Below are positions 5,532 to 49,843 of a stretch of DNA of 64,000 nt, piece after piece. The position numbers were made by a program, and so were the translations under genes. How positions within the stretch are numbered: the stretch's first letter is position 1; each line of letters begins with the position of its first letter. The stretch comes from Halorussus limi (GTDB lineage Archaea > Halobacteriota > Halobacteria > Halobacteriales > Haladaptataceae): the NCBI RefSeq assembly GCF_023238205.1, contig NZ_CP096660.1, positions 186,001-250,000 of the forward strand, written 5' to 3'. The notes below the pieces were generated by a model. That model did no database searches. It was given only the letters and a program-made list of their open reading frames with translations, and was not told the origin of the DNA.

Positions 5532-6962
5532 GTGGACATCGCCCGCTCGACGCTGAAGCTCTACGTCGCCCAACTCGGGAGCGCGGCGCTCGTGGCGGGC
5601 GGTCTCGTGTTCTTCTCCCGGGAACTGGGGGCCGCGACGATGGGGGTGTTCTTCCTCTTTCAGGCGGTGCTGGAGATGCTGATGATTCCCGCCGACTTCG
5701 GCGTCCGCGGGGCCGTCGAGAAGCGAATCAGCGAGGGCGAGAGTCCGCCCGACATCTTCAGCACCGGCCTGCTTCTGAAGGCGGGTCTCGCGGCGTTCGC
5801 CGTCGCGGGCATCCTCGTGTTCCGGGGGCGACTCAACGAGTACATCGGCGCGGAGTTGGCGCTCTACCTCGCGGTCGCAGTCGTCCTCCGGGAGTTCTCG
5901 TGGCTGATGATGCGGGTGCTGAAGGGCGAACTCCGAGTCGAGGAGACCGCGACCCTGAAGTTCGTCCAGAAGGCCGTCTGGATAGTTGGCGGCGGCGCGC
6001 TGGTCTACCTCGGGTGGGAGGTCGAAGGGCTGGTCTACGGCCTCATCGGCGGCTTCGCGGCCGTCCTCGTCTGGGGGACGTGGAAGGTCTCGACGCCGCT
6101 CGGCAGACCCTCCCGCGAGCGGGCCCGGTCGCTGGTGGACTACTCGAAGTACAACGTCGTCACGTCGGTGCAGGGCTACGTCGGTAACTGGCTCGACGTG
6201 GTGTTCATCGGCTTCTTCCTGAGCCAGACCCACGTCGGGGCCTACGAGGTGTCGTGGCGGGTGACGACGTTCGTCCTCCTGCTCAGCAAGGCCATCGCCC
6301 AGAGCATCTTCCCCCAGATAAGCGAGTGGAGCGGCGAGGACGCGACCGGGCGCATCGAGCGTCTCATCACCTCGGTCATCACGCCGTCGGTGTTCCTGCT
6401 GATTCCGGCGCTGGTCGGGACCGCCCTGCTCGCCCGACCGATTCTGGAACTGGTGTTCGGCGCGGAGTTCGGCATCGCCAGCGTCTCGTTCGTCATCCTG
6501 ATGGGGTTCACGCTGATTCGGGGCTTCGGCGTCGTCTTCGGCCGGGCGCTCGGCGCGATAGACGAGATGCGACTCGCGGCCATCTCCGGGGTCGCCGCGA
6601 CCACGAGTAACGTCCTCCTGAACGCGGTGCTGGTCTTCCAGTTCGGTCTCGTCGGCGCGGCGACGGCGACGTTAATCTCGTCGGTGGTGGGGACCGGTCT
6701 CGACGTGCGATTCCTCTCCCAACACATCGACCTCGAACTCCCGGTCACCGAACTGAAGTACTGCGCCGTCTCGGCGGGCGTGATGGGCGTCGTCGTCTAC
6801 CTCGCGCGGTCGAGCATCGGCGTCGGGACCCTCTGGAAACTGGGCGCGGTCATCGCGCTGGGCGGCGCGACGTACGGGGCCGCGGTCTTGGCGTTCCGAC
6901 CGCTCCGGACGCGGGTCCTCGGGACGCTTCCCGTCGGGCGACTCCGGAGGTGGTCGCCGTGA
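5532..6962 (+). CDS. Polysaccharide flippase (oligosaccharide flippase / Wzx-like, MOP superfamily)
   Basis: A 476-residue integral membrane protein with about 12-14 helices and the RfbX/Wzx layout. The N terminus (STLKLYVAQLGSAALVAGG, then FFSRELGAATMGVFFLFQA) is the typical start of polysaccharide biosynthesis flippases. It should move lipid-linked oligosaccharides across the membrane for the surrounding glycan cluster. GTG at 5532 directly abuts the TGA of the DUF1616 gene and is in the same frame. The end (TGA 6960-6962) overlaps the GTG at 6959 of the next gene, so translation of three genes is coupled. Confidence 0.92.
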   Translation: MDIARSTLKLYVAQLGSAALVAGGLVFFSRELGAATMGVFFLFQAVLEMLMIPADFGVRGAVEKRISEGESPPDIFSTGLLLKAGLAAFAVAGILVFRGRLNEYIGAELALYLAVAVVLREFSWLMMRVLKGELRVEETATLKFVQKAVWIVGGGALVYLGWEVEGLVYGLIGGFAAVLVWGTWKVSTPLGRPSRERARSLVDYSKYNVVTSVQGYVGNWLDVVFIGFFLSQTHVGAYEVSWRVTTFVLLLSKAIAQSIFPQISEWSGEDATGRIERLITSVITPSVFLLIPALVGTALLARPILELVFGAEFGIASVSFVILMGFTLIRGFGVVFGRALGAIDEMRLAAISGVAATTSNVLLNAVLVFQFGLVGAATATLISSVVGTGLDVRFLSQHIDLELPVTELKYCAVSAGVMGVVVYLARSSIGVGTLWKLGAVIALGGATYGAAVLAFRPLRTRVLGTLPVGRLRRWSP

Positions 6963-43547: not shown

Positions 43548-43994
43548 CTACTCGGTCACGACGGTGACCGGACCGTCGAAGTTGAGGATTATCGACTGTG
43601 TCAGGTCGCCGAACAGCGCCTTCCCGGCGGGCGAGCGCTTCTCGCCCGCGATGAACAGGTGGTCGCAGTCGCGCTGGTCGGCGGTCTGGAGAATCTGGTT
43701 CTGCTCGTCGCCGAGTGCGCCGACCGCCTCCCACTCGACGTCGACGCCGTCCAGCACCTCGCGGCCGATGTCGGCGGCGAAGTTCTCGGCGCCGACCCGG
43801 GCCTGTTCGGCCGAGTAGCCGACGACGTCGTTCGGAATCGACTCCATCGTCTGTCTGGTCTTCTCGTACTCGTCGTTCGTCGTGACGTGGAGCAGTACCA
43901 GTTCGGCGTCCACGGCGGCGGCGAGTTCGCCCGCCTCGCGGACTAGCGCCTTCGTGGACTCCTCGGCGTCGACGACTGCGAGTGCGCGTTCCAT
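43548..43994 (-). CDS. Universal stress protein (UspA family)
   Basis: A 148-residue UspA-type protein with a Rossmann-like fold. ALAVVDAEESTKALV at the start, LVLLHVTTNDEY, HLFIAGEKRSPAGKALFGDLTQSIILN (the ATP-binding G-x9-G-S/N region, here GKALFGDLTQS) and PVTVV at the end are as expected. ATG 43994 is supported by ATTATTTAT (minus strand, 44020-44028), about 30 bases upstream, a leaderless promoter. Confidence 0.92.
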   Translation of the reverse strand: MERALAVVDAEESTKALVREAGELAAAVDAELVLLHVTTNDEYEKTRQTMESIPNDVVGYSAEQARVGAENFAADIGREVLDGVDVEWEAVGALGDEQNQILQTADQRDCDHLFIAGEKRSPAGKALFGDLTQSIILNFDGPVTVVTE

Positions 43995-44019
43995 ATAAGG
44001 GCCATGAAGTGACCGATAC

Positions 44020-44028
44020 ATAAATAAT
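44020..44028 (-). promoter_or_regulatory. TATA box of the universal stress protein gene
   Basis: ATTATTTAT on the minus strand, 26-34 bases before ATG 43994. Confidence 0.55.
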
Positions 44029-44118
44029 CCGATTGGGTGGTAATAATTAGCACTCGCCGTTTAGACGGTATCAGTTCCAACCCGCAGGTATATGCACGTC
44101 GATGGTGTGGGAGAGTCC

Positions 44119-45930
44119 GTGTCAGAACAGTCGACGCGCCGCGACGTGTTGAAAGCGGCGAGCGCGGCCACGCTCGGGTCCGCGCTGTCGGCGCTCGCCG
44201 CGGCGGACGCCGCGGCCCCGCGACTCGTCCCGGAACCGCTCGGCGGGACCGACAGCTTCGAAATCGAACGCGAGCGGGCGACGTCGGTGTTTCCCCACTC
44301 GGTCGCCAGCGGCGGGCCGACCCCGAGCGGCGTCCTGCTCTGGACCCGACTCGACCGGGAGGCGTACTCGGAGGGGACGAAACTCGGCGTCGAAGTCGCC
44401 GCGGACGAGGCGTTCGACGACACCGTCTATCGGGGGACGGTTCCGGCCGGGCGGGTCGGCCCGAAGCGCGACTACACCGCGACGGTGGATTTGGACGGCG
44501 AGCTGAGCGCGGACAGCCGTTACTTCTACCGGTTCGTCTACGACGGCGCGGCCAGCGAGGTGGGTCGGTGTCGAACGCTCCCGAAACCCGACGCGAGTCC
44601 CGACTCGCTCAGTCTCGCCGTCGCGTCGTGCAACCACTACCTGCAGGGCTACTTCGGCGCGTTCGCCCGGGTCGCCGAGGAAGACGTCGACTTCCTCGTC
44701 CACCTCGGAGATTTCATCTACGAGGAGGGCGGCGACGGCGTCGGCGACCGGTCGCTCGACCTGCCGACCGGGCACCAGAAGGCCCACGGTCTGGCCGACT
44801 TCCGGTACCTCTACCGGCAGTACCGGTCCGACGAGTTCCTCCGGCGCGCGCTCCGCAACCACACCATGATTCACACGTGGGACGACCACGAAATCGTCGG
44901 CGACAGGTGGTGGGACTACGACGCGAACGCCCCGGCGACCGAGAAACACCCCCGCGGCGACGACCCGGAGTTCATGCGCCGCCTGTACGTCGACGGGATT
45001 CGGGCCTACACCGAGTACGTCCCGGTCCGTGCGCGCTACGAACCCTCCGGCGAGGAACTCGCGCCCGACGCCATCCGGGAGAACTTCGAACTGTACCGGT
45101 CGTTCGAGTTCGGCGACCTCGCGGACCTGTTCGTGACCGACGAGCGCCTCTACCGGTCGACGCCGCCGGGGACCGAGGGGAAGACCGTCGCCGTCCCGGT
45201 CGAGAACGCCGTCGAGAACCCCGGCCGGACGATGCTCGGGGGCGACCAGCGGTCGTGGTTCCGCTCGGGGATGGCCGACTCGGACGCCCGGTGGAAGCTC
45301 TGGGGCAACGAGGTGCTGGCGGCCGCGTTCCGGTTCTTCCAGGACGGCCAGATAACGGTCAACGCCGACGCGTGGGACGGCTACCGGACCGAGCGCGAGC
45401 GCATCCTGTCGGGTCTCGCGGACGCTGGCGTCGAGAACGTCGTCGCGCTGACCGGCGACATGCACAGCTATCTCGCCGGCTACCTGCTAACGAGTTACGA
45501 ACTGACCGCCGGGGGAGGCGGCGGTTCCGGGGACGGGAGCGGCGAGCGGGTCGGCGTCGAGTTCATGGCCCCTGCGGTCAGCAGCGACAACCTCGTGGCG
45601 AGCGGACAGTTGCCCGACGAAGGGACCGACGCCCTCGTCGCCGCGCTCCGGGCGGAGAACCCGCACGTCCAGTGGTTCGACAGCAGTCACTGGGGCTACG
45701 CGGTCGTGGACGTGACCCGCGAGGAACTCACCTACTCGGCCTACGCCGTGGACCGGAGCACGGACGCGGCCGACGCGTCGAAGGAACTCCTCCGCCGGTA
45801 TCGAGTGCCCGCGGGGTCGGTCGAGATGAAGCGAGTGGACGGCGAGGGCGGCGGCGGGAGCGATAACGACAGTAACGCAACCGGCGCAAGCGACGAAAAC
45901 GACAGTAGCGGTGGCAACGAGAGCCAGTAG
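44119..45930 (+). CDS. phoD: Tat-exported PhoD-like alkaline phosphatase/phosphodiesterase
   Basis: A 603-residue PhoD-family metallophosphoesterase, exported folded by Tat (STRRDVLKAASAATLG, then ALAAADAAAPR). The N-terminal fibronectin-like part has FPHSVASGGPTPSGVLLWTRL. Catalytic blocks: VASCNHYLQGYF, VDFLVHLGDFIYE, MIHTWDDHEIVGD and NVVALTGDMHSYLAGYLL. GTG 44119 fits a TATAT at 44089; ATG 44092 would give nine more residues but lies inside that TATA. The last 30 residues are a Gly/Ser/Asp/Asn tail, cut short by a frame change. Releases phosphate from extracellular phosphoesters. It precedes the CHAT gene on the same strand. Confidence 0.9.
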   Translation: MSEQSTRRDVLKAASAATLGSALSALAAADAAAPRLVPEPLGGTDSFEIERERATSVFPHSVASGGPTPSGVLLWTRLDREAYSEGTKLGVEVAADEAFDDTVYRGTVPAGRVGPKRDYTATVDLDGELSADSRYFYRFVYDGAASEVGRCRTLPKPDASPDSLSLAVASCNHYLQGYFGAFARVAEEDVDFLVHLGDFIYEEGGDGVGDRSLDLPTGHQKAHGLADFRYLYRQYRSDEFLRRALRNHTMIHTWDDHEIVGDRWWDYDANAPATEKHPRGDDPEFMRRLYVDGIRAYTEYVPVRARYEPSGEELAPDAIRENFELYRSFEFGDLADLFVTDERLYRSTPPGTEGKTVAVPVENAVENPGRTMLGGDQRSWFRSGMADSDARWKLWGNEVLAAAFRFFQDGQITVNADAWDGYRTERERILSGLADAGVENVVALTGDMHSYLAGYLLTSYELTAGGGGGSGDGSGERVGVEFMAPAVSSDNLVASGQLPDEGTDALVAALRAENPHVQWFDSSHWGYAVVDVTREELTYSAYAVDRSTDAADASKELLRRYRVPAGSVEMKRVDGEGGGGSDNDSNATGASDENDSSGGNESQ

Positions 45931-46120
45931 CGGCGGCAATCGGTCCAGTAGTAATGGCAACGAAAGCAGGTGACGGTGGCGGCGAGCACGGCGAACCGTA
46001 GACGCCGATCGAACGATTCCCGGAATCGACGGCAGGAGGCGAGCAAAACGCGCTGCAACGGGACCGAGGATTTTTAGGTGTTCACTGAGACGACACGTAC
46101 AGTTCAGGAGGCCGTACGCT

Positions 46121-48489
46121 ATGTCCACGCAACCGACCTTCAGTCCGCTGTCCGACGCGACCGGCCTCGACATCGTCGACCCCATCGAGACCCGCCACTT
46201 CTCGCTGTTCACCGACTCGCCCGTGACGCCGACCGACGCCGACGCCGACGAGTTCGCGTTCCCGGTCGCGACGGCGTGTCGGATTACCACCGGGCGACTC
46301 GGTCTCCCCTACATGGTTCCGATGGAGGTCCGGTCGCCCGACGGCGCCCACCGGGCGTCCATCGACCTGCCGACGACGCGGGAGTTCCCGGACGACGAGT
46401 ACCTGCTCGAACTCCACTCGCCCATCAAGGTCTACCTCCGGACGACCGGCGGGATGACCATCGACACGGACGACGACGGCGTCGAAATCGAGTTCGAGGG
46501 CGAGGTCGCGGTCGAGGTCGGCGCGCGGTCGTACCACAGTTCCCCGGCGGCGACGATTACGGTGCCCGACGACCCGGCGGCCGTGATGGAGGCGGTGTCG
46601 GCGTTCCCCTCGGCGCTGAAGACGACCAGTCCCGAGCGCGCGTGGCCGACCCTTCGCGGCCACCCGCCGCGAGTCGAGCGCGGCGACGAGTTGTCGATTC
46701 CCGACGGACTGAAGTCGCCCGATACGGGCATCGAAATCGCGGTCCCCGCGGAGTACGGCCACGTCTACACCGTCGCGCCGCTGGCCTACTACCTCGGCGC
46801 GGACGTGGTGCCCGGCGAGACGGCGCGCCTGACCGCGGAGTCCGGCGTGGACCGACTGCTCGGCGACGACGCGGCGGCCGTCGGCGAGTCGGTAGAGGAG
46901 ATTCTCAAGCGGGTCTTTCTGCTGGACTGCGTGACCAGAACCGAGGGCCTCTATCCCGACGAACTCCACGAGCGCGAGGTGCTGGAGTCCCACGTGGACC
47001 TCGATTTCGGGGGACTCTACGAGGCGTCGCTAGCCGACCGACTCGCGGCGTACCTCGCGGTGCCAGACGAGGCGTTCGCAGCCATCGAGTCGCCGTGGCA
47101 CCGGGTCACACACGTCGAGGGCGACCCCGGCCCCGACGCCGCGGAACTCCTGCCGTACGTCGTCAACGACCTCTCGTTAGTTCGAGTGAAGTCCGAACGC
47201 GAGGACGCGTGGTCGCCGACGGAAGCCCAGAAGGAGACGAACGAGGCGCTGAACGCCTTCGTCCGGTCGCCGACGACGGCGGCCTCGACAACCGGGGTCA
47301 CGAAGGTCGGGGAGCGGACGACGTGCCACCGGCGGGTAGCACTCCGGAGGCGAGTGAGGAACGCGAAGACGTCCTCCGGTCGGCCGGCCACGAACGCTCG
47401 ATTCGGCGGCGTCACTGCGACGGCTTGGGGAACACGGACGCCGAGTGCGACGAAGAACCGGCAGACGGCGAGGAACCGGTGGATGGCGAGAAACCGGACT
47501 GCGGCGGGTCGGCGCACGCAGGCGAATCCTATCGCGACGACGACTCCGGCCGCGACGCGGCCCGAGGCGTGCCGGGCGAGGACGGCTACATGCCGCTCCC
47601 GGAGACCGACGCGCTCGAACAGGCGTGGATAGGCGACCGGACGCCGGTCGAGGGGACGAAGTTGCTCAAACCGGCCTTCGAACACGAATCGACGACTTCG
47701 GAGGACGGTACGGTCGAAATCACGGTGGTCTGCAACGACGAGCGGATGCGCGAGGAGTGGGACTCGGCCGCCGAAATCTACGCCGACCGCGACGACGTCC
47801 GGGCCAACGTCACCTGCGAGTTCGACGTCTCGACCGCTCGCCTCCGGGACCTGCTGGCCGAGGACACCGACATGTTCCACTTCGTCGGCCACATCGACGG
47901 GCTGGGATTCCAGTGTTCGGACGGGATTCTCGACGCCGACACCGTCGACGGGACCGGCGCGACCACGGTGCTGCTCAACGGCTGTCGGTCCCACGACCAA
48001 GGCGTCTCGCTGGTCGAGGCGGGCGCGAACGCGGCGGTCGTCAGCCTCGGCGACCTCTGGAACGAGGGCGCGGTCGAGGTCGGCGAGACGCTGGCGAGAC
48101 TGATGCACTACGGATTCAGCATCGGCCACGCGATGACCATCGTGCGCGAACACACGTCGCTCGGGAAGGAGTACATGGTCGTCGGCAATCCTAGCGTGAC
48201 GCTCTGCCAATCCGAAAACGGAATTCCGTGTATGTACCATGTTTCGGATGAGGAAGCGGAAACCGAGACGTTCGAGGTCAAGATATATTCGTATCCGATC
48301 TGGGGATTCAGTATCGGGGCAACTATCGTCAGCTATCTTCCGAAATTCGAAAGACAATACATAGCCGTCGGTGAGTGTGGGAAAGAGAGAACAACCATAG
48401 ACGAATTCAGAGAAGTCCTCGACTCGTATTCCGAACCGCTAATCGTCAATGGGAAACTAACTTGGTCAGATGTCTGGCTTGATATTTAA
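46121..48489 (+). pseudogene. CHAT-domain (caspase-like) protein with a one-base frameshift
   Basis: One gene in two frames. Frame A, from ATG 46121 (MSTQPTFSPLSDATGLDIVD), encodes about 395 residues of a folded N-terminal region (VERGDELSIPDGLKSPDTGI, YTVAPLAYYLGADVVPGE). Frame B runs to TAA 48487-48489 and encodes an acidic linker and a CHAT peptidase domain with HFVGHIDG (His codon 47890-47892) and LLNGCRSHDQG (Cys codon 47983-47985), the expected catalytic pair. One extra G in the GGGG run at 47309-47312 or 47293-47296 would restore a protein of 789 residues. It could be a true mutation, slippage or an assembly error. A mini-protein gene converges on it with overlapping stops. Confidence 0.8.
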
Positions 48490-48632
48490 GGCCCAAACCT
48501 AGCTCCTGCAGACCCTGCCGCCACGTTCCCCACCTGCGACAGCAGTAGTATCAGCGTGAAGAGCGCGCCCATTGTCCTCGGATGCTCTGCGAGCCATCCC
48601 GTGATATCCTCCGTTTCTGGCATCACAGACAT
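48486..48632 (-). CDS. Haloarchaeal hydrophobic mini-protein (DUF7503-like)
   Basis: A protein of 48 residues from ATG 48632, or 45 from ATG 48623 (MPETEDITGWLAEHPRTMGA), TAA at 48486-48488. After a short polar lead with WLAEHPR it has one hydrophobic stretch (MGALFTLILLLSQVGNVAAG) and ends in FGP. This pattern is that of DUF7503-type mini-proteins, which occur beside CHAT-like genes in haloarchaea (from memory, not checked). The stop codon overlaps that of the CHAT gene on the opposite strand. An AT-rich promoter with ATATTTAG at 48662-48669 lies about 33 bases upstream. Possible roles: CHAT substrate, membrane-active peptide or regulator. Confidence 0.75.
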   Translation of the reverse strand: MSVMPETEDITGWLAEHPRTMGALFTLILLLSQVGNVAAGSAGARFGP

Positions 48633-48633
48633 A

Positions 48634-48659
48634 TATCTAATTACGATAACTATCTAATT
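48634..48659 (-). promoter_or_regulatory. Direct repeat in the mini-protein promoter
   Basis: TATCTAATT occurs at 48634-48642 and again at 48651-48659, 17 bases apart, between the TATA-like ATATTTAG (48662-48669) and the start codons of the mini-protein. Could be a repressor site. Confidence 0.5.
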
Positions 48660-49048
48660 TTCTAAATATTTCCTATGCTAAAAATCAGATAGAATGTCGG
48701 AGGTTATGGCTTACGTGCTAACATCGCTCCCGAACGACTTATTCTTAGGGTCTGAAACCGCCTCTCCGGGATTACGACCGCGTAATAGGAAGTTCCGTCG
48801 ACGATGCATCCGATAGAACCGGGTCGGCCTCGCGAAAAGGTAGAGATAAATAAATACGTCTCAAGTATTCCTATAGACACCTTTTCCGCCAGTAAATCAA
48901 CCTTATTTCTCTCCATTGCGTCGGACGCGGTGCAGACCGAAAGATCGCACGACGCGCGACTCACTATCGAACTATCACCGGAACTAGGAACGACAACGTT
49001 TCGCGTGGTTGGGGCACGGACCTTTTGTATCCACTCTGTTTCGGGAAG

Positions 49049-49093: not shown

Positions 49094-49843
49094 ATGACGA
49101 CGGACCGGTCCACGCCACGGGAAGACGACGACGAGCCGCCCGGCGACGAGTTCGACGCGTTTCTGAACACGCTGAACGAACTGAAATCGACTGGCTGTAA
49201 CTTGCTGGTGGTCGGGGACGCGCCGCGGGAGGTCTTCACCCGTGCGAGCAGTCAATTGTTAGGCGACTCCGACATACTCCGCTACCGAGTGTTGGCCGTC
49301 ACCGACGCCACGACCCGGAGCGTCGCCGACCGGCTTCCGGACCCCGAGACCGCCCCGCGACCGCTGGCCGAGACGACGCGCATCTTGAACCACGCCGGCG
49401 TACCGCGGTCGGTCACCGACGAGAGCGCCGCGCCGCCGGAACTCGCCGGGATACGCGAGACGTGCGTGGCCGACCCGCAACTTCGGGGTCTCCAGTCGTG
49501 CCTCGCGGAGGCGATTCAGGAGGTCGTGGACAGCGCCGAGTCGCTGAACCCGGCGGACCTCCGGGTCGGCGTCGATTCGCTCACGCCGCTAGTCGAGTAT
49601 CACGGCGCGGACGTGGTCCGGCGGTGTCTCGACATGGTCGGGGGCCACGTCCGCGACAACGACGCGATGGCCCACTACGTCCTCCCCGGCGGTTACCGGA
49701 GCGAACGCGTCCAGTCGGTCGTCCCCGCCGCCGACGCGGTCATCGAACTCCGGACGGTGGACCCGGACGAGTACGACCACGACGTACAGCAGCGCTGGCA
49801 CGTCCCCGACCGGGACCTCGCGACCGGGTGGACTCCGCTGTAG
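49094..49843 (+). CDS. DUF7504-like (KaiC/RecA-fold-like) haloarchaeal protein
   Basis: A 249-residue soluble protein. After 20 acidic residues it reads FLNTLNELKSTGCNLLVVGDAPREVFTRASSQLLG and RYRVLAVTDATTRSVADRLPD, resembling degenerate KaiC/RecA-like domains that have lost the Walker A Lys (GDAPREV in place of G-x4-GKT). The C-terminal part (VEYHGADVVRRCLDMVGGHVRDNDAMAHYVLPG) fits the end of the same fold. Such proteins are seen in haloarchaea as DUF7504; assignment is from memory. A role as a signalling or regulator protein next to the CHAT pair is possible but unproven. ATG 49094 begins the acidic N terminus. Confidence 0.75.
   Translation: MTTDRSTPREDDDEPPGDEFDAFLNTLNELKSTGCNLLVVGDAPREVFTRASSQLLGDSDILRYRVLAVTDATTRSVADRLPDPETAPRPLAETTRILNHAGVPRSVTDESAAPPELAGIRETCVADPQLRGLQSCLAEAIQEVVDSAESLNPADLRVGVDSLTPLVEYHGADVVRRCLDMVGGHVRDNDAMAHYVLPGGYRSERVQSVVPAADAVIELRTVDPDEYDHDVQQRWHVPDRDLATGWTPL

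Follow-up and report, generated by a model that had tools for sequence, protein, structure and literature searches.

Convergent Pairing of Haloarchaeal CHAT Protease-Like Genes with Genes for Small Proteins That End in Gly-Pro

Gene content of the Halorussus limi locus

The window, i.e., the whole 64,000-nucleotide stretch of the Halorussus limi contig NZ_CP096660.1 that was analyzed, encodes on its forward strand a large protein with a predicted CHAT (caspase-like) domain. Its N-terminal part (46121 to 47306), delimited by alignment with intact Halorussus homologues and by the family profile, consists of a β-rich and an α/β region and carries the conserved motifs SALKTTSPER-WPTLRGHPP and LLDCVTRTEG. 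The remainder of the linker, the CHAT domain, and a C-terminal region occupy positions 47307 to 48489, as judged from the alignment of homologues and from structural searches with the model of one of them, and the gene ends with a TAA stop codon (48487 to 48489). The predicted catalytic His (codon CAC, 47890 to 47892, forward strand) lies in a GH motif (FHFVGHID), and the predicted catalytic Cys (codon TGT, 47983 to 47985, forward strand) lies in an NxC motif (LLNGC). Genes for UspA-like and PhoD-like phosphatase proteins are found upstream of the CHAT gene (43548 to 45930), in synteny with a plasmid of Halorussus aquaticus (L032).

On the reverse strand, a very short gene (48486 to 48632) is convergent with the CHAT gene. 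Its product, MSVMPETEDITGWLAEHPRTMGALFTLILLLSQVGNVAAGSAGARFGP, consists of 48 residues (45 if translation starts at the second ATG) and belongs to the DUF7503 family (Pfam ID PF24335; E value of 3.6e-19; 68.5 bits against a cutoff of 27). Alignment of 105 such mini-proteins delineates three elements, all on the reverse strand: an [HN]P[RK] motif (HPR, 48576 to 48584), a hydrophobic helix that ends with a small-x-small sequence (VAA, 48516 to 48572) and is missing in some types of partners, and a C-terminal tail, GSAGARFGP (48489 to 48515), whose conserved Gly-Pro end is common to the different partner types. Directly upstream of the mini-gene, also on the reverse strand, there is a conserved promoter-like element, GGAAATATTTAGAAAATTAGATAG (48650 to 48673), recognized by eye in a comparison of 117 upstream regions. 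The mini-gene thus has its own conserved BRE/TATA-like promoter, whose spacing would fit a leaderless or near-leaderless mRNA. The preliminary description of this DNA had noted the His and Cys codons and an opposite-strand frame of 45 to 48 residues with an FGP end, all of which are present in the sequence. It also reported that both stop codons overlap within TTTAA; the overlap exists, but the four nucleotides shared by the two TAA stops (48486 to 48489) read TTAA, a slip of one base.

Further downstream, on the forward strand, lies a gene of the DUF7504 family (49094 to 49843; Pfam ID PF24336; E value of 1.4e-41, well clear of the curated cutoff), which encodes a degenerate KaiC/RecA-like protein without a P-loop.

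The single large CHAT gene of the preliminary description does include a CHAT part with the His/Cys pair, but its reading frame is broken near positions 47271 to 47306, which had been overlooked. Position 46121 sets the frame of the N-terminal part, and the CHAT part follows that of position 46078; the span from 46121 to 48489 is 2,369 nucleotides long, which is not a multiple of 3. In a pairwise DNA alignment with an intact relative that is 83% identical (locus L044, genome G008), the frameshift zone falls on the forward strand into a variable linker (47271 to 47306), where gaps of 10, 20, and 1 nucleotides (31 in all) produce a net shift. The homologues on Halorussus plasmids are intact single open reading frames (ORFs) of about 724 to 754 amino acids, and a programmed frameshift is unlikely because the homologues stay in one frame. 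The copy in the window may be a true pseudogene or reflect an assembly error, so that this particular copy may be dead. In the same genome, each of four further CHAT genes that were read is paired with a convergent gene of the DUF7503 or a DUF7503-like type (two at L037 and one each at L038 and L146).

The CHAT protein family

In searches of Pfam, NCBIfam, PADLOC, and PDB sequences, the window CHAT protein gave results that were either below the threshold or empty, with no match to the Pfam CHAT family (PF12770). The best-scoring relative reaches an E value of 2.9e-4 and 20.8 bits against PF12770, under the cutoff of 24, and the family has no sequence match among solved chains. The low score marks the detection limit of the profile rather than a structural failure. 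An AlphaFold model of a homologue (L057; pLDDT of 86.6) matches in Foldseek searches SAVED-CHAT (E value of 2.3e-7), separase (E value of 7.0e-7), gingipain R, and the TPR-CHAT protein of Craspase. This places the model within the caspase-hemoglobinase fold and supports the CHAT assignment. Among the matches listed, none is convincing for the N-terminal region taken by itself. The two dyad columns, H548 and C579, are invariant in 74 aligned relatives, and the GH…NxC dyad occurs in 173 of the 175 distinct CHAT genes; the two without it are truncated fragments. The caspase-like His/Cys pair pointed out earlier is therefore a family-wide feature, and the large gene encodes, on the evidence of the model, a predicted protease of the caspase/separase fold with intact active-site residues and a distinctive, conserved N-terminal region.

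Beyond the class, relatives of the CHAT protein are seen in just a single further family within the phylum. The four loci read there (L221 to L224) show no Gly-Pro-tailed partner; these distant CHAT genes are located near a large gene that is conserved across the four loci. A phage or virus origin was rejected, since viral contigs yielded no relative.

Pairing of CHAT and DUF7503 genes

The CHAT family is present in 103 and DUF7503 in 95 of 116 haloarchaeal genomes sampled evenly across the class. In this sample, 124 of the 127 DUF7503 genes are convergent, i.e., arranged tail to tail, with a gene of this CHAT family; of the three exceptions, two adjoin broken CHAT genes (L198 and L199). The converse comparison, the weaker of the two, started from the 80 best CHAT loci in GTDB genomes: in 72 of them, no more than 1.4 kb separates a DUF7503 gene from the 3′ end of the CHAT gene, and 70 of these 72 DUF7503 genes are convergent and lie within 130 nucleotides of the CHAT stop codon. 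DUF7503 is also carried by the control genome, that of Haloferax volcanii. The pairing is thus real and class-wide.

The mini-protein frame is conserved at the protein level: third codon positions vary the most, and the median dN/dS ratio is 0.21. The preliminary description had proposed a candidate two-gene system and suggested examining whether the mini-protein gene accompanies haloarchaeal CHAT genes. It does; DUF7503 genes do not reside mostly away from CHAT genes, and the conservation of the frame likewise supports a dedicated pair.

Halorussus genomes carry several paralogous CHAT-mini pairs each. Within this genus, the distances between CHAT proteins correlate with those between the complete mini-proteins (r = 0.54; permutation maximum, 0.26) and with those between their last 10 residues (r = 0.36; permutation maximum, 0.25), values that kinship of the sequences may inflate, the permutations having been kept within one genus. 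These correlations indicate that the partners diverged jointly.

In 131 CHAT-DUF7503 pairs, the stop codons overlap in 38 cases (by 4 nucleotides in 33 of them), are 0 to 20 nucleotides apart in 67, and are 21 to 300 nucleotides apart in 24. Control by antisense overlap, as suggested in the preliminary description, is unsupported, given that stop overlap is common but not universal and that the mini-gene has its own promoter; as a general mechanism, it was rejected.

The Gly-Pro tail and the types of partners

The strongest features across the 105 aligned mini-proteins are the [HN]P[RK] motif before the helix, with its Pro residue in 104 of them, and the Gly-Pro C terminus, found in 90. The small-x-small site is also well conserved (Val or Ala at position 37 in 98 of 105 proteins and Ala or Gly at position 39 in all 105). 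A convergent ORF that ends with Gly-Pro and a stop codon is located opposite 137 of the 175 distinct CHAT genes, compared to 262 of 6,920 control windows (3.8%) and, in a second control, 6 of 119 DUF7504 3′ ends (5%). This association is far above chance. The 137 genes use all 16 GGN-CCN codon combinations for the terminal Gly-Pro, which shows that the constraint acts on the peptide. For the same reason, and because the stop codons differ and Gly-Pro also occurs inside tandem arrays (see below), a role of this end as a terminator or another DNA element was rejected, and ribosome arrest at Gly-Pro-stop is unlikely.

Paralogous CHAT genes whose partner does not match DUF7503 are often found opposite other small Gly-Pro-ending ORFs, some of which lack a helix. 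In one well-supported clade of 11 CHAT genes, the partners end with VS[TS]YGGP and have no hydrophobic helix. Those at loci L174 to L184 share the ending KRVS[TS]YGGP (KGVSTYGGP in one case), whereas outside this ending their sequences vary and are nonhydrophobic. Among the helix-less partners, the endings include AKRVSTYGGP, AGNGTVITGP, and TANGVVVKGP. A hydrophobic leader with a small-x-small site ahead of a short tail is characteristic of the DUF7503 forms but not of the YGGP type, the partners at L168 and L171, or the array forms. The conserved core of the partner is the C-terminal Gly-Pro peptide, as far as the alignments indicate, and not the hydrophobic helix.

Two groups of CHAT genes have other surroundings. 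At L166, L167, L169, and L172, they form tandem doublets or triplets with no recognizable Gly-Pro-tailed partner nearby. In a clade found mainly in Halorussus (L145, L148, L158, L161, L069, L070, and L074), the convergent gene is thioredoxin-like and takes the place of that for a Gly-Pro-tailed mini-protein.

Tandem peptide arrays

The orthologous mini-gene exists in two forms within a single Haloplanus-type genus (g56). Two genomes (G365 and G321) encode an ordinary helix protein that ends with AAGNSGAISGP or ASNGAATSGP. In six sister genomes and in a named relative, a Haloplanus metagenome-assembled genome (L104), the start of the protein is kept and the helix is gone; its place is taken by a tandem array of 2 to 13 units, each 13 residues long and ending with Gly-Pro. 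The arrays (L165 [region 5885 to 6530], L212, L214, L216, L217, L218, and L104) are found at the orthologous place opposite the CHAT gene and differ in copy number between species. Their units, such as YTADGNSGGISGP, MTADGNGSGISGP, and MNADGNGGGISGP, follow a pattern similar to [YMFS][TN]ADGNxxGISGP. In the array of 13 copies, residues 2 to 13 are identical in every copy, and 11 of these 12 codons vary synonymously. In the CHAT tree, the arrays are nested among species with the ordinary helix protein, and the form changed at least twice.

Loss of the helix together with multiplication of the tail indicates that function resides in the tail and that the protein can do without the helix. The array units contain no Lys or Arg, so a single classical basic P1 site cannot free them. 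Each unit has an Asp, which is missing from most single-copy tails, so that the sequences do not point to one shared cut site.

Genomic context and the DUF7504 protein

Most species have one copy of the CHAT module per genome. Chromosomal copies reside among housekeeping genes, such as those for IMPDH, a HalX response regulator, and TrmB in Haloferax, for PolX in Haloarcula, and, in another genome, for ribosomal protein S7. PADLOC has no family for the CHAT, mini-, or DUF7504 proteins up to an E value of 10. A typical defense system, the setting suggested in the preliminary description, is not supported by this mostly single-copy, chromosomal distribution or by the PADLOC searches. In Halorussus pelagicus (L031, 412 to 3494), a CHAT pair adjoins genes for an N-6 methylase and a XamI-type restriction enzyme.

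For 91 of the 175 CHAT genes, there is a DUF7504 gene within 600 nucleotides on the upstream side or 1.5 kb on the downstream side; DUF7504 is thus often the third gene of the locus. This family extends beyond the module, with 1 to 20 copies per genome. The structural model (pLDDT of 91.5) matches KaiC in Foldseek searches with an E value of 6.8e-8 and a TM score of 0.5 to 0.6, which supports a RecA/KaiC core fold. However, the Walker A P-loop, GxxxxGK[ST], is missing: the window protein reads LLVVGDAPREVFTRAS at this place, with no GK[ST], and the invariant and near-invariant columns of the family alignment include no P-loop. The DUF7504 protein is therefore probably not an ordinary ATPase.

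Possible functions of the module

The small gene most likely encodes a dedicated carrier of a Gly-Pro-tailed peptide that either is processed by the CHAT protease or controls it. Of the three roles that had been listed for the mini-protein (substrate, membrane effector, or inhibitor), the first and the last remain candidates, and the evidence draws attention away from the helix and toward the Gly-Pro peptide at the C terminus.

The reading tentatively preferred here, with slightly less than even confidence, is a protease-and-peptide module, in which the CHAT protein would cut the carrier and thereby release or unmask Gly-Pro-ended peptides for regulation or signaling. The small convergent gene, transcribed from its own promoter, would produce a carrier in which a C-terminal peptide of roughly 9 to 13 residues, closing with Gly-Pro, is the functional end. 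In the DUF7503 form, this peptide would be held behind the hydrophobic helix, which may serve as a membrane anchor or a signal-like sequence. The cognate CHAT protease would recognize and then cut the carrier, and the peptides so released or unmasked would act on their target in regulation or signaling; carriers with tandem arrays could give rise to many identical peptides from one precursor. At loci that encode it, the KaiC-like DUF7504 protein probably has a regulatory role. Several points count against this reading. The array units and most single-copy tails offer no shared cut site; some CHAT paralogs, namely those in doublets or triplets and those of the thioredoxin-facing clade, have no Gly-Pro partner; with the helix in an N-in orientation, the tail would be outside the cell, apart from a cytosolic CHAT protein; and the frameshifted CHAT copy of the window may be dead.

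Alternatively, the two proteins may form a receptor-ligand or inhibitor pair, in which the Gly-Pro peptide binds the CHAT protein as a pseudosubstrate inhibitor, antidote, or activator and the targets of the protease lie elsewhere. This is possible, if on the unlikely side. It is consistent with an adjacent pair that is dedicated and codiverging and with a tail that varies behind a conserved leader; the tandem units could form a multivalent ligand, and the binding site could lie in the N-terminal region of the CHAT protein, which is large and conserved. However, a requirement for a free C-terminal Gly-Pro clashes with the internal Gly-Pro units of the arrays unless these are excised.

The notion that the Gly-Pro-ended peptides, in 1 to 13 copies, constitute a new class of archaeal peptide signals, matured or sensed by the tail-to-tail CHAT protein and with paralogous pairs mutually insulated, goes further and is doubtful at present.

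A membrane effector, i.e., a pore-forming or membrane-damaging helix that CHAT cleavage frees in defense or cell death, is improbable. Most partners do contain a 17-residue hydrophobic segment (median peak Kyte-Doolittle value of 1.69), and the structural neighbors of the family include SAVED-CHAT and Craspase; caspase-fold proteases in defense systems cut dedicated partners. However, the helix is missing from the YGGP-type, L168, L171, and array partners, which speaks against this as a general role, as do the near-core, mostly single-copy chromosomal location beside housekeeping genes and the absence of a PADLOC family and of relatives among viral contigs.

It is very improbable that noninteracting proteins are held together only by tail-to-tail antisense or shared-terminator control: the stops are within 20 nucleotides or overlap in 105 of 131 pairs, 33 of them with the 4-nucleotide overlap, but gaps reach 300 nucleotides, conservation acts at the peptide level with all Gly-Pro codon combinations in use, the pairs codiverge in sequence, and a thioredoxin gene occupies the same place in one clade, so other genes can reside there.

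Comparison with known systems

SAVED-CHAT of type III CRISPR systems and TPR-CHAT of Craspase, which are among the best solved structural matches, share with the haloarchaeal family the CHAT fold and the His/Cys dyad. However, the haloarchaeal proteins have a different N-terminal region with no visible SAVED or TPR part, and their partner is a Gly-Pro-tailed protein of 40 to 60 residues. The neighboring genes examined include no CRISPR genes. The separase-securin pair is similar in its caspase-like fold, as seen in the fold match, and in its dedicated regulatory partner, but the haloarchaeal partner is tiny, and the CHAT family lacks sequence matches to solved chains.

Rap-Phr and AimR-AimP of Firmicutes are gene pairs for a peptide precursor and its TPR receptor, and the yeast alpha-factor is a multicopy prohormone. 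The likeness to these systems consists in a short precursor encoded next to its partner gene, a hydrophobic leader, and a variable C-terminal peptide, sometimes repeated in identical copies. In contrast to Rap-Phr and AimR-AimP, the haloarchaeal module is archaeal, its genes are convergent, the partner is a CHAT protease and not a TPR receptor, and several partner types have no secretion-like sequence. The module would work in a way comparable to established pairs of a protease and its partner, and its precursors are similar to those of peptide signals, although not all of the defining features of those families are observed.

Haloferax volcanii is reported to have a high basal caspase-like activity for which no gene homologue is known (PMC3615174), and the CHAT family is only a candidate for its source. 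The quorum signal of this organism, a small molecule no larger than 3 kDa, is insensitive to proteinase K (PMC12240190); no connection with the module can be claimed.

A literature search found no paper that names DUF7503 or DUF7504 and none on haloarchaeal CHAT proteins or systems. The two DUFs are cataloged by name only, and the link to CHAT, the Gly-Pro tail of the non-DUF7503 partners, and the arrays lie outside the family descriptions. Two families of undescribed function and an underdetected family of caspase-like proteases are thus joined in one module that is found in most sampled haloarchaea, including Haloferax volcanii, a tractable model. To our knowledge, peptide maturation and peptide signaling are hardly known in archaea, and the tandem arrays are a strong hint at one or the other.
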